64,000 bases of DNA, from the NCBI GenBank assembly GCA_022768185.1, contig JALEMS010000023.1:1-64000 (forward strand), written 5' to 3'. The notes below the pieces were generated by a model. The model was not told the DNA's origin, did not search any database, and saw only the letters and a program-made list of their open reading frames with translations. This DNA comes from Clostridiales bacterium (GTDB lineage: Bacteria; Bacillota; Clostridia; Oscillospirales; Oscillospiraceae). Below, one piece after another: positions 844-64,000 of this stretch. Position 1 is the first letter of the stretch; each line of letters starts with the position of its first letter. A program made the translations under genes and the position numbers.

Positions 844-1578
844 TCATTCCTCCTCGCCGGTGATCTCGTCGAGCGCGCGGCTGACGCGATCGGCGTGATA
901 GTGATAGGTCTGCTTGATATAGCCCATGAGATCTTCGCCGGACTCCTCCAGCTCGGACATGGACACATCGCCGACGATCTTGCCTTTCCGGATGAGCACC
1001 GCCCGTCCGATGAAACCGGAAACCTCCTCGATCAGATGTGTGGAGAGCAGCACCGTCTCATTCGGCTCCAGCACGCCCAGCAGCACCTTGTAAAAATCCT
1101 CGCGGTTGAAGACGTCGTTGCCGGCAAACGGCTCGTCCATGAAGATATAGTCCGCGCCCTGGCACAGAGCCAGGATCACCTCAAACTGGTTTTTCTGTCC
1201 GGTTGAGAAGCTGCGCAGCGCCTTATAACGTGGCAGCTCGAAAAAGCGCATCAGCCCGTCGAAGCGCTTGCGGGAGAAGTCGGGAAAGTGCGCGGCGTAA
1301 AAGCCGGCATGCGCTTCGGCATTGAGATTTGGGAAGAAAGAATGCTCGCTGGTGGCAAACGAAAGGCGCGCGATGTTCCGCCGTGTGATGGGCGCGCCGT
1401 CGAGCGTGATGCTGCCGCTGTGCGGCAGCAGGCCGAGGATGCACTTGATGAGTGTCGTTTTGCCGGCTCCGTTTTCGCCGAACAGGCCCACGATCTCACC
1501 CTGCGGAAGACGCAGGCTGACATCGGACAGCGCTTTTTTTCCGGGGTAGGATTTGCTGACGTGGTTGAGTTCAATCAT
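844..1578 (-). CDS. ABC transporter ATP-binding protein (YtrB/BcrA type)
   Basis: This 244-residue protein is the energising subunit of an ABC exporter. The Walker A motif GENGAGKT lies near residue 35, the signature appears as FSTGQKNQ in place of LSGGQ, Walker B is YIFMDEP and the switch histidine is in STH. The chosen ATG (MIELNHVSKSY) overlaps the stop of the upstream membrane gene as ATGA; a longer in-frame reading would run through that gene and is rejected. The C-terminal 30 residues after the ATPase core are acidic and may contact the membrane subunits. The substrate is unknown. Antimicrobial-peptide or envelope-stress export is typical of GntR(YtrA)-linked systems, but this is inference. 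Confidence 0.93.
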   Translation of the reverse strand: MIELNHVSKSYPGKKALSDVSLRLPQGEIVGLFGENGAGKTTLIKCILGLLPHSGSITLDGAPITRRNIARLSFATSEHSFFPNLNAEAHAGFYAAHFPDFSRKRFDGLMRFFELPRYKALRSFSTGQKNQFEVILALCQGADYIFMDEPFAGNDVFNREDFYKVLLGVLEPNETVLLSTHLIEEVSGFIGRAVLIRKGKIVGDVSMSELEESGEDLMGYIKQTYHYHADRVSRALDEITGEEE

Positions 1579-29544: not shown

Positions 29545-30563
29545 AGACCAGTGATTTTAATTTTGACCTTCCGGAGGAGCTGATTGCACAGACCCCTCTT
29601 CAGAAGCGGGACGCTTCCCGGTTGATGCTGCTCGACAAAACGACCGGGGAAGTGGAGCACCGGCATTTCTATGAGCTGCCGTCGTTTCTCTGCCCGGGCG
29701 ACTGCCTGGTAATGAACGATTCCCGTGTGCTGCCGGCTCGCCTGCTGGGCTGCCGCAGCACCGGCGGCGCGGTGGAGGTGCTGCTGCTGCGCGACCACGG
29801 GGACGGCCTGTGGGAGTGCCTGACACGTCCCGGTCGGAAAACGCAGCCTGGTACGGAGCTTTCCTTCGGGGGCGGCGAGCTGACGGCTACCGTGGAGGCG
29901 CTGGCCGAGGACGGCAAACGCATGGTGCGTTTTTCGTGGGAGGGCATCTTCCTTGAGGTGCTCGAACGGCTGGGGCGTATGCCGCTGCCGCCGTATATCA
30001 AGGAGGAGCTGCAGGACGCCGAACGGTATCAGACGGTGTACTCCCGCGTTCCGGGCAGCGCCGCGGCGCCTACAGCCGGGCTGCATTTCACGCCGGAGCT
30101 GCTGGGGCAGATCCGTGCAATGGGTGTGAAGGAGTGCTTTGTCACGCTGCACGTCGGTCTGGGAACGTTTCGCCCGGTCAAGGCCGAGCAGCTGGAGCAG
30201 CATGAGATGCACTCGGAATTCTGCATCATCCCGGAGGAAACCGCGCGGATCGTCACCGAAACCAGGCGCGCCGGCGGCCGGGTGATCGCCGTAGGCACAA
30301 CCAGCTGCCGTACGCTTGAGAGCTTTGCCCAGCCGGACGGCACGCTGCAGCCGGCCTCGGGCTGGACCAATATTTTTATTTATCCGGGATACCGCTTCAA
30401 ATGCGTTGACGCGCTTGTCACAAATTTTCATCTGCCGGAAAGCACGCTTATCATGCTTGTTTCGGCGCTGGCCGGACGCGAGCACGTACTGTCGGCCTAC
30501 CGGCAGGCGGTGGAGAACCGGTATCGTTTCTTCTCGTTCGGTGACGCGATGTTTATACATTGA
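29541..30563 (+). CDS. queA: S-adenosylmethionine:tRNA ribosyltransferase-isomerase
   Basis: A 340-residue enzyme of queuosine synthesis that transfers the ribosyl part of SAM to preQ1-tRNA. Hallmarks are [44 protein letters not shown]-like sequence near residue 155, [14 protein letters not shown] and the C-terminal [12 protein letters not shown]. The ATG overlaps the stop of the SpoIID-like gene (ATGA), so the two are coupled. tgt follows 79 bases later. Presence of both suggests the cell makes or salvages preQ1. Confidence 0.97.
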
Positions 30564-61031: not shown

Positions 61032-61077
61032 GCAGCGCCTTCCTCTGAAACGCCTGTGAGATGGAGATAAAAGAAGA

Positions 61078-61128
61078 AAAGCCCGGACCGCCTGCAGCGC
61101 GCAACGCGCTGCAGGCGGTCCGGGCTTT
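61078..61128. terminator. Bidirectional terminator between glnN and caxA
   Basis: A 24-bp perfect stem (61078-61101 with 61105-61128) with a 3-base loop, A-rich before and TTTATT after. It is the longest hairpin in the window. Confidence 0.92.
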
Positions 61129-61141
61129 ATTGCACAGAAAA

Positions 61142-62116
61142 TCAGAACGCAAACTGGAATACACAGAAGGCGGCATAAATAATCAGCAGCGCAACGCCCT
61201 GTACACGCGAGAGCTTTCCTCGCACCAGCGTGGGCACCGTCAGCAGCAGCATTACCGCGAACATCACCGGGATATCTACAGCCAACGAGGCGTTGACGCC
61301 GGCAATCAGCTTCCCCTGCGGAATGGAAAAGGGCGCCAAAACCGTTGACAGACCGCTGACCAGCACAAGATTGAACAGATTTGCGCCAATGACGTTGCCC
61401 AGTGACAGCGCACCGTGACCCTTTGCCAGCGAGGTGATTGCCGTTACCAGCTCCGGCAGCGAGGTGCCCAATGCAACAAATGTCAGCGCGATAACCGACT
61501 CCGGGACCCCCAGGGCCTGTGCAATGAGTGTTCCGTTGTCTACCAGCAGGCGCGCGCCTACCGCAATGAGCGCTGCCCCTACGACCAGCAGTGCCAGCTG
61601 CTTGGCCAGCGGGGCGTCGTCCTTCCCCGTGTCCTCCGGCTGCGTCGGACGGGAGAGACAACTCTCACGACGGGTCTGCAAAACGGTACACACCATGTAA
61701 ATCACAAATATTGCCAGCAGGATCGCACCGGCCAGACGGCTGAAAAAGCCTGCAGCATAAGCAACTGCTGCGTAAAATACCGCTGCGGCGAAGAAAAACA
61801 GCACCGGCGTACGCAGTGTGCTGCGTGTCACCTCCGCAGGACGGATGGCAATGGTGAGCGCGGCGATGAGCGCCGTGTTGCAGATAACCGAGCCGATGGC
61901 ATTGCCGTAGGCAATTTCTCCGTGTCCGCCAACGGCGGAAGCCGCTGAGACCATCACCTCAGGAAGCGTTGTGCCGATTGAGACAACGGTTGCGCCGATG
62001 AGCAGCTCCGGTATACGCAAGCGATGGGCCAGACCGGTGGCTCCGTCGACAAACCAGTCGCCACCCTTAATGAGCAGCACCAGGCCAACGAGAAACAGCA
62101 AAACAGGGACGAGCAT
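61142..62116 (-). CDS. Calcium/sodium antiporter (CaCA family, YrbG-like)
   Basis: A 324-residue membrane exchanger made of two inverted repeats. Repeat one has TVVSIGTTLPEVMVSAASAVGGHGEIAYGNAIGSVICNTALI; repeat two has TFVALGTSLPELVTAITSLAKGHGALSLGNVIGANLFNLVLV. The Glu in each LPE and the GN(A/V)IG are the ion-binding residues. About ten hydrophobic segments are visible. It lies 20 bases after mntP and shares its transcript, so a role in divalent cation efflux under the same control is likely. Confidence 0.94.
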   Translation of the reverse strand: MLVPVLLFLVGLVLLIKGGDWFVDGATGLAHRLRIPELLIGATVVSIGTTLPEVMVSAASAVGGHGEIAYGNAIGSVICNTALIAALTIAIRPAEVTRSTLRTPVLFFFAAAVFYAAVAYAAGFFSRLAGAILLAIFVIYMVCTVLQTRRESCLSRPTQPEDTGKDDAPLAKQLALLVVGAALIAVGARLLVDNGTLIAQALGVPESVIALTFVALGTSLPELVTAITSLAKGHGALSLGNVIGANLFNLVLVSGLSTVLAPFSIPQGKLIAGVNASLAVDIPVMFAVMLLLTVPTLVRGKLSRVQGVALLIIYAAFCVFQFAF

Positions 62117-62136
62117 AAAACCTCCGATCCGGCGCT

Positions 62137-62724
62137 TCAGAGCACGCCGCTGAGAAAAATCTCAACTCCGATTAAAATCAGTATGACACCGCCCAGAATA
62201 TCCGCCTGATTGGACAGCTTGGTTCCAAAGCGCTTACCCAGCGCCAGGCCCCCCATGCAGATGACGAAGGTAACTGCAGCGATGATGAGCGCAGCGGCCA
62301 GCGCCATTTGCCAGTTGTATTCCGCAATGGTAAAGCCGACGGACAGCGCGTCAATCGACGTAGCCACGCCCTGCACCAGAAGCGCACCGAAGCTGAGCAC
62401 AGCCTCGGGCGACTCGTCCTGCCCGCGCTTGCGAATGCCGCCGATGAGCATTTTTCCACCGATGAACGCCAGTAAAATCAACGCAATCCACGGAATCAGC
62501 CGCTCAAACGAGCGGAAAAGCCGCATCACAGTGTGTACGCACACCCACCCGATCATCGGCATGACAGCCTGAAACAGCGCAAACACGCCGGCGATCACGG
62601 ACATTTTTCCCGCGCGCATCCGCGGCTCGCTCAGTCCGTTTGCCAGCGAGACGGAAAAAGCATCCATTGCCAGTCCGATGCCAAGCAGCGCACTGTTGAG
62701 TACGAACAGGAAGTTCCACTGCAT
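62137..62724 (-). CDS. mntP: Manganese efflux pump MntP
   Basis: A 195-residue, six-segment exporter of Mn2+. Family features are LLGIGLAMDAFSVSLANGL with the acidic Asp, GVFALFQAVMPMIGW, WIALILLAFIGGKMLIGG, then ATSIDALSVGFTIA and GKRFGTKLSNQADILGGVILILIG. ATG 62724 is preferred, with GGAGG 9 bases upstream; TTG 62730 is nearer but too close. It is transcribed from its own promoter through a 150-base structured leader. Confidence 0.94.
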   Translation of the reverse strand: MQWNFLFVLNSALLGIGLAMDAFSVSLANGLSEPRMRAGKMSVIAGVFALFQAVMPMIGWVCVHTVMRLFRSFERLIPWIALILLAFIGGKMLIGGIRKRGQDESPEAVLSFGALLVQGVATSIDALSVGFTIAEYNWQMALAAALIIAAVTFVICMGGLALGKRFGTKLSNQADILGGVILILIGVEIFLSGVL

Positions 62725-62875
62725 ATCCAATTCCCTCCGGGAACCTTTTTTCTTACCATTCCGTCATAATCTGCGGAGACGGGGCATCGCCCGGAGAGCC
62801 GGTATCGTTTCGAAGCGAGCAGCCGTCCTTATCGGGGGTTCTCCGATCACACGGTTTCGGATCGATCAGGCTTTA
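62725..62875 (-). promoter_or_regulatory. Structured 5' leader of mntP (possible riboswitch)
   Basis: A leader of about 150 bases with competing pairings. CGGAGA at 62845-62840 can pair with UCUCCG at either 62797-62792 or 62779-62774. CUCCGGG at 62796-62790 can instead pair with CCCGGAG at 62741-62735, which includes the SD of mntP. I do not find the GGGGAGUA element of the yybP-ykoY manganese riboswitch. Confidence 0.55.
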
Positions 62876-62881
62876 TGGAGC

Positions 62882-62910
62882 ATTATAACCCGTACTGCAC
62901 CGGAACACAA
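62882..62910 (-). promoter_or_regulatory. mntP promoter
   Basis: TTGTGT (62910-62905), a 17-base spacer and TATAAT (62887-62882) on the minus strand. Confidence 0.65.
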
Positions 62911-62959
62911 GCATGATCTGCGGCAGAAGTCAACTTTTTCCTCTCGGCGTGCGGAACGG

Positions 62960-62988
62960 TTGCATTTTTTCACGGGGTCTGGTAGCAT
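62960..62988 (+). promoter_or_regulatory. Promoter of the DUF3298 lipoprotein
   Basis: TTGCAT, a 17-base spacer and TAGCAT (62983-62988), about 65 bases before the gene. Confidence 0.55.
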
Positions 62989-63053
62989 AGCTCATACATC
63001 AATAACAAATAATGTGTATCACTGAAAAACCAGGTTTTACGGAGGATGCTTTG

Positions 63054-63857
63054 ATGAAACGAATTTTTGCACTCGCTCTGTGCCTGTGCATGCTGCTGTG
63101 CGCATGCACAGGCACAACCACGCCAAACGAGCCGAAGCAGCCGGACAATCCTGTGCCTGCCGGGCAGCCGGAGCAGCCGAAGGCTCCGGTTCTCAGGACG
63201 GAGCGGATTATTCTGACGGACGAGGCCATGCAGGCAGCCCGGCTGAACGTGGAGTATGATGCCGTTACAGTCGACGGCGACGGGTTTGATGCGCTCAACC
63301 GTGCTCTGGATGCGTGGAGCCGCAGCCTGGCCGATGATCTGAGTACCGCGGCAAAAAATGTGCTGCCCGATCTTGAGGAGCTGAACGGTGTGGTTTCGGA
63401 GGATACGAGCTATGCGCTGGAGAACAGCGTTGCCATTGTCCGCGCCGATGCACAGTATGTCTGCCTTGCGATCACGTCTTATTCCAGCCTCGGCGGCGTG
63501 CATCCCTTCACCGCCACCCGCTCGGTCTGCTTTGACACGCAGACCGGCAGCCAGCTGCAGCTCAGGGACATTGCCAAAGACTACGACGCCGTCTACCAGG
63601 CCACGCAGGATGCGCTCGCCCATTATGAAGACCGGGAAGCGTTCTTTGAAGACTACGCCGGGACGGTCTATGATATGTTCTATACCAACGAGGACGACAC
63701 GCTGACCTGGCTTCTGGGTGAGGATACGCTGACGATCGTTTTCTCCGTCTATATGATCGCGCCTTACGCCTACGGCCCGCTTGAGGTGGTGCTTCCGTTT
63801 ACAGACGGCACGCTTTCAGACGGCGCGTCCGGTTCTGTGGTAACAACCCTCGACTGA
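63054..63857 (+). CDS. DUF4163/DUF3298-domain lipoprotein
   Basis: A 267-residue exported lipoprotein. The signal peptide IFALALCLCMLLCACTGT ends in a lipobox with Cys at about residue 18. A Pro/Gln/Glu-rich linker (NEPKQPDNPVPAGQPEQPK) follows. The rest has the DUF4163 to DUF3298 layout also seen in RsiV and PdaC: LNVEYDAVTVDGDGFDALNRALDAW, then YSSLGGVHPFTATRSVCFDTQTGSQLQLRDI and FSVYMIAPYAYGPLEVVLPF. In RsiV this domain binds lysozyme; here binding of a wall glycan is only inference. ATG 63054 has GGAGG 8 bases upstream. Confidence 0.9.
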   Translation: MKRIFALALCLCMLLCACTGTTTPNEPKQPDNPVPAGQPEQPKAPVLRTERIILTDEAMQAARLNVEYDAVTVDGDGFDALNRALDAWSRSLADDLSTAAKNVLPDLEELNGVVSEDTSYALENSVAIVRADAQYVCLAITSYSSLGGVHPFTATRSVCFDTQTGSQLQLRDIAKDYDAVYQATQDALAHYEDREAFFEDYAGTVYDMFYTNEDDTLTWLLGEDTLTIVFSVYMIAPYAYGPLEVVLPFTDGTLSDGASGSVVTTLD

Positions 63858-63880
63858 ATTTCATATCCCGGAAGAGTCCG

Positions 63881-63914
63881 ACGGCCGGAGGCAGCAGCTG
63901 CCTCCGGCCGTTTT
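63881..63914 (+). terminator. Terminator after the lipoprotein gene
   Basis: A 14-bp perfect stem (63881-63894 with 63898-63911) followed by TTTT. From 63915 to the window end I see nothing. Confidence 0.85.
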
Positions 63915-64000
63915 GAATCTCTGTGCCGCAGTACCGGTTTGACATGAGTTTTACAAAAGCTGCCTTTTCCATTTTACAGCCGGCCGGTATTCTGAAAACT

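Follow-up and report, generated by a model that had tools for sequence, protein, structure and literature searches.

Downstream of a candidate promoter, and immediately before a gene for a putative manganese efflux pump, lies a predicted leader RNA that raises the question of whether it is a regulatory switch. The gene, mntP, is followed by a caxA-like gene in the window, which here means the whole 64,000 nt stretch of DNA that was analysed. A preliminary description of the region had proposed that one segment of the leader can pair either with an upstream element or with the Shine–Dalgarno (SD) region, the layout of a translational switch, and that the leader lacks the signature of the yybP-ykoY Mn2+ riboswitch by which mntP is classically controlled. 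We found that the pairings are real strings that occur near chance level, and that they do not demonstrate the proposed switch.

The mntP-caxA operon and its leader

The start of mntP is backed by homologues, and the position of the -10 element upstream of it gives the predicted length of the 5′ UTR (Table 1). A -35-like hexamer further upstream, TTGTGT, is weak (3/6 consensus), and because of this a consensus promoter scan did not list the TATAAT. The caxA-like gene is the second in the operon and is separated from mntP by 20 bp.

Table 1. Features of the mntP-caxA locus, in window coordinates
Feature	Position	Strand	Basis
Candidate -10, TATAAT, perfect	62887-62882	-	sequence
Predicted mntP 5′ UTR, ~150 nt	62725..62875	-	distance from -10 to ATG at 62724
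CGGAGA upstream element, complementary to either UCUCCG copy	62840..62845	-	sequence
CUCUCCGGG, complementary to SD region, 9 bp including one G-U	62790..62798	-	sequence, folding
UCUCCGGG, the two-partner segment	62797-62790	-	sequence
Second UCUCCG copy	62774..62779	-	sequence
CCCGGAGGG, includes Shine–Dalgarno GGAGG (62738-62734)	62733..62741	-	sequence
SD-region CCCGGAG	62741-62735	-	sequence
mntP, putative manganese efflux pump, 195 aa, ATG at 62724	62137..62724	-	Pfam PF02659, E 7e-37
caxA-like calcium/sodium (cation) antiporter	61142..62116	-	PF01699, E 3.2e-59; TIGR00367 above cut-off

On either side, two further features were seen. At 61077-61127, between caxA and a convergent type III glutamine synthetase gene, a long inverted repeat that is almost perfect precedes a T-rich stretch; recognized by eye, it looks like a terminator shared by the two genes. 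The divergent neighbour of mntP, at 63012-63857 on the plus strand, encodes a DUF3298 protein (PF11738) that likely starts at an ATG near 63054, opening a lipoprotein-like signal peptide.

No recognizable yybP-ykoY riboswitch in the leader

The sequence GGGGAGUA is the signature of loop L1 in yybP-ykoY RNAs, and it fits the 32 leaders of the lineage that were aligned here. These RNAs form a four-way junction in which loops L1 and L3 come together around Mn2+ and L3 carries an invariant adenosine (PMC6754395). In the region 62725-62920 the L1 signature is absent, whether as GGGGAGUA, GGGAGUAG or GGGAGUA, and a scan for GGGAGTA upstream of mntP genes left the locus itself (L112) unflagged. When all Rfam models were run over 62400-63200, no riboswitch match was returned up to an E value of 10, and over the full window nothing was found above the gathering score. 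RF00080, the model of yybP-ykoY, matched neither the mntP leader nor any other part of the host genome.

RF00080 performs poorly on related sequences. It gave 0 matches above its cut-off and 12 at E ≤ 0.01 in 200 genomes of the bacterial family, and of 11 loci in which GGGAGTA precedes mntP or caxA, only 2 were matched at E ≤ 0.05, both under the gathering score. As clear members of the class are missed, a negative result with RF00080 is uninformative on its own, and a lineage model, R1, was therefore built as a covariance model from the 32 aligned leaders. R1 recovered 6/6 held-out members, including the divergent caxA-type L154 and L155 (E approximately 1e-5), and matched 86/200 family genomes, or 70 of the 129 of good quality. 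In the host genome there were 0 matches, and with the filters off R1 returned nothing in the mntP leader; the best match in 62000-64000 scored 6.7 bits and lay outside it. A degenerate yybP-ykoY element was rejected on these R1 results. Thus, the reported lack of a yybP-ykoY signature holds for the motif, for Rfam and for R1, and nothing positive was found for the accompanying suggestion of a divergent Mn riboswitch.

Most of the clear yybP-ykoY RNAs in this bacterial family are overlooked by RF00080, those at loci L113, L116, L120, L130, L153 and L160 among them. Aptamers upstream of mntP at L041, L051, L071 and L113 look intact apart from extra sequence inside their variable hairpins, and the RNA collected at L051 is 188 nt long, compared with the usual ~105 nt.

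Riboswitches and gene order in relatives

GGGAGTA is present within 400 nt upstream in 51/110 mntP loci, a set in which the locus itself is counted and which is made up of 80 loci from a wider genome contig set and 30 from the family, some with less upstream DNA. Among the matches listed, R1 was found no more than 450 nt upstream of 33/149 mntP places in the family (and of 5 of the 19 closest listed), as well as upstream, within the same distance, of 14/73 caxA places. In relatives, therefore, mntP and caxA are each, separately, members of a Mn-riboswitch regulon. PMC8546581 describes a Bordetella calcium:cation antiporter that is under the control of a yybP-ykoY riboswitch and exports manganese, and the presence of yybP-ykoY in both caxA and mntP leaders of relatives fits with this. 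The riboswitch-bearing caxA genes of the family are likely Mn exporters. The caxA places with a yybP-ykoY leader of their own, among the matches listed, are L153, L154, L155, L160 and 10 others. A cobalamin riboswitch (RF00174, 58 bits) was also seen at L153:11-204, upstream in the caxA locus of genome G073.

Adjacency of mntP and caxA was not found between the 149 family mntP places, which exclude the locus itself, and the 73 caxA places, among the matches listed. In the wider genome contig set, a distant caxA (~33% identity) lies within the flank of two mntP loci, L073 and L085. At L085 a yybP-ykoY RNA (positions 1099-1202, minus strand; 69 bits with R1) precedes a divergent caxA-like gene, and mntP there lacks such an RNA. 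The MntP matches listed for the family fall into two groups, as if they represented two paralogous lineages: 20 places, including the one studied here, are at 55% identity or above and the others at approximately 35–45%.

The leader was also sought as such, in draws of genomes (200, 394, 300 and 291) that overlap and that represent the genus by one genome. BLAST returned no homologue from 200 family genomes, where the best match in another genome was 26 nt (E 0.006), or from 394 order genomes, where it was 27 nt (E 0.0025). The short matches in order genomes were treated as chance, and of those listed for the family, none was closer than 3 kb to mntP among the matches listed. When R2, a structure model of the mntP leader, was run on 300 family genomes, 291 class genomes and 59 mntP/caxA loci plus the window, only the leader itself was recovered. 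Elsewhere in the host genome the sole repeat was a 19 nt chance match at 30512.

The pairings measured against chance

The strings on which the switch was founded are present: the segment 62790-62797 is complementary, on the minus strand, both to 62840-62845 and to the SD region at 62735-62741. The SD helix joins 62798-62790 to 62741-62733 in 9 bp with one G-U, and UCUCCG occurs at 62797-62792 and again at 62779-62774, each copy complementary to the CGGAGA at 62845-62840.

In 2000 dinucleotide shuffles with the last 20 nt fixed, a 9 bp SD helix, G-U counted, was attained in 78 and the 7 bp Watson–Crick core in 215, making the SD helix commoner without the G-U and rarer with it. The layout of one segment with two partners of at least 6 bp arose in 86/2000, and all of these shuffle figures are per leader, the mntP leader having been singled out in the preliminary description among the dozens of genes of the window. 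An SD helix of at least 9 bp, counting G-U, is found at 7/51 genes of the window. Opening the SD would cost 7.24 kcal/mol, which was equalled or exceeded in 67/400 shuffles and places mntP fifth among the 51 window genes, behind four with higher values. The fold of the whole leader has a z-score of +0.37, with 128/200 shuffles as stable, and the segment 62725-62866 one of −0.58. Taken alone, the SD hairpin (62733-62798; z −2.08, 7/200 shuffles) and the 5′ segment (62808-62866; z −1.91, 8/200 shuffles) score lower, both segments having been picked because they pair. The pairings are barely more than chance and are weak as evidence of a switch.

Predicted folds of the leader

In the folding ensemble of the full leader with 30 nt of coding sequence, the pairs of the SD helix have probabilities of 0.93–0.99. 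The pairing of 62845-62840 with 62797-62792 has a probability of 0.00, and forcing it costs 8.5 kcal/mol above the minimum free energy (MFE). The second UCUCCG, which had been put forward as a further competitor, is present and complementary, but its pairing with 62845-62840 likewise has a probability of 0.00 in the full leader and costs 4.8 kcal/mol above the MFE when forced. As the SD helix is populated and its competitors are not, the mntP leader RNA is predicted not to be bistable. With the SD kept free, the full leader folds at best 7.8 kcal/mol (MFE) or 7.3 kcal/mol (ensemble) higher, and its folding did not yield two mutually exclusive folds of comparable stability, one of them hiding the SD. 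In principle, the energy of a bound ligand could pay for the 7.8 kcal/mol gap.

The MFE fold of the segment 62761-62856 alone is an interrupted helix of 15 bp, spanning 62854-62840 and 62779-62761, that uses the second UCUCCG and the CGGAGA (−30.8 kcal/mol, z −0.58), and a closely similar helix recurs in the most stable fold of the full leader that leaves the SD free. The segment 62856-62761 could take up this helix on leaving the polymerase, so a kinetic switch is conceivable, though not favoured. With pairings near chance, competing helices unpopulated and no relative found that has the leader, the claimed translational switch is not supported. A terminator/antiterminator platform was also considered and rejected, the only terminator-like site being the SD hairpin read on the plus strand, which is the wrong strand for mntP.

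Possible transcriptional control

An MntR-like protein is encoded at G000:C38:19551-19712, with PF01325 and PF02742 above cut-off; its best NCBIfam models are MntR, matched below their equivalog cut-offs. An Nramp importer was not found in the host genome. The best inverted repeat near the mntP promoter, with 9 bp half-sites agreeing at 7/9 positions, was reached in 184/300 shuffles. Inverted repeats near the promoter are thus at chance level and do not point directly to an MntR operator.

The mntP gene of E. coli is activated by MntR as well as being under its riboswitch (PMC11647493). Several 18 bp sites serve MntR in activating the Mn efflux genes of B. subtilis (PMC11275975), for which another study reports an MntR motif that differs (PMC10448178). 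As the two motifs differ, the operator search is not a confident one.

Discussion

We conclude that the leader is probably an ordinary, lineage-specific stretch of approximately 150 nt preceding a Mn efflux operon, mntP-caxA, and that any control is more likely exerted at the promoter. The yybP-ykoY riboswitch that many relatives carry on either gene would have been lost from this leader, or would never have been present in it. The SD would lie within a GC-rich hairpin of chance-level strength that probably lowers basal translation without sensing, and a response to Mn, if there is one, would more likely act on the promoter via the MntR-like regulator, whose gene lies at another place in the genome. 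We infer all three of these elements: the promoter of mntP, the lowered translation and the MntR control. Against an ordinary leader, 150 nt is long for an unregulated gene, RNA control would fit two genes that belong to Mn-riboswitch regulons in relatives, the SD hairpin and 5′ segment taken alone, though picked for pairing, have z-scores of −2.08 and −1.91, and the inverted repeats near the promoter do not rise above chance. On balance, an ordinary leader is more likely than a new switch.

The SD hairpin could alternatively be a static translational attenuator or a simple RNA thermometer, needing no ligand and either fixing translation at a low level or melting with heat. The high pair probabilities of the SD helix and the 7.24 kcal/mol needed to open it are consistent with this, but we think it unlikely given that four of the 51 window genes need more energy, that 67/400 shuffles reach this value, that no Rfam thermometer model matched and that no conservation was found. 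An orphan translational switch is rather unlikely. In it, the early 15 bp helix would free the SD, the SD helix of the full transcript would hide it, and a metal ion or other signal would select between them in place of yybP-ykoY. Each of the two folds is indeed the MFE at one length, 62761-62856 alone or the full leader, a replacement sensor would be logical in an operon that joins two genes under Mn-riboswitch control in relatives, and in E. coli the leader of mntP is reported to hide its SD when Mn2+ is lacking (PMC11647493). However, the layout recurs in 86/2000 shuffles, the upstream helix segment has a z-score of only −0.58, the SD-free fold lies 7.8 kcal/mol above the MFE, and with no homologue of the leader found there is no covariation. 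A more specific form, in which a new, genus-specific metal-sensing switch replaced yybP-ykoY when mntP and caxA were joined, with 62854-62840 paired to 62779-62761 as ON and 62798-62790 paired to 62741-62733 as OFF, is quite improbable.

It is very improbable that this stretch upstream of mntP was captured recently, or is a remnant, and has no regulatory role, in which case the true transcript may start elsewhere. No homologue was seen in any of the genomes searched, and the mntP-caxA adjacency, unseen in other family genomes among the matches listed, points to a rearrangement that is recent on the scale of the family; against this, the leader lies between a plausible promoter and a good SD, as in a regular transcription unit. 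Divergence of a yybP-ykoY riboswitch past recognition is extremely improbable. The 51/110 mntP loci with an upstream GGGAGTA, which caxA relatives carry too, would be consistent with such an ancestry, but the leader has no GGGAGUA, neither R1 with filters off nor RF00080 finds anything in it, RF00080 finds nothing in the genome, and R1 reaches even L154 and L155.

Compared with known systems, the leader resembles yybP-ykoY (RF00080) of the translational type, as in E. coli mntP, in standing before mntP and in having a long UTR fold that hides the SD, a likeness in how it would work only; it differs in having no L1 GGGGAGUA, no four-way-junction aptamer and no RF00080 or R1 match. With the MntR-controlled Mn efflux promoters of B. 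subtilis mneP/mneS and E. coli mntP it shares a Mn exporter gene and an MntR-like regulator in the genome, although here no inverted repeat with 9 bp half-sites rises above chance near the promoter. The second gene of the operon belongs to the calcium/cation antiporter family, as does Bordetella BP3410, a CaCA-family Mn exporter under yybP-ykoY (PMC8546581), whereas caxA here shares an operon with mntP, lying behind it, and lacks a separate riboswitch.

If the switch were real, manganese sensing by RNA would have a second solution, placed before the very genes that yybP-ykoY controls in relatives. In GC-rich 150 nt leaders of this kind, chance alone yields a segment complementary both to the SD and to a second partner in a few per cent of cases, which calls for caution. 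For the bacterial family as a whole, a negative RF00080 search means little.
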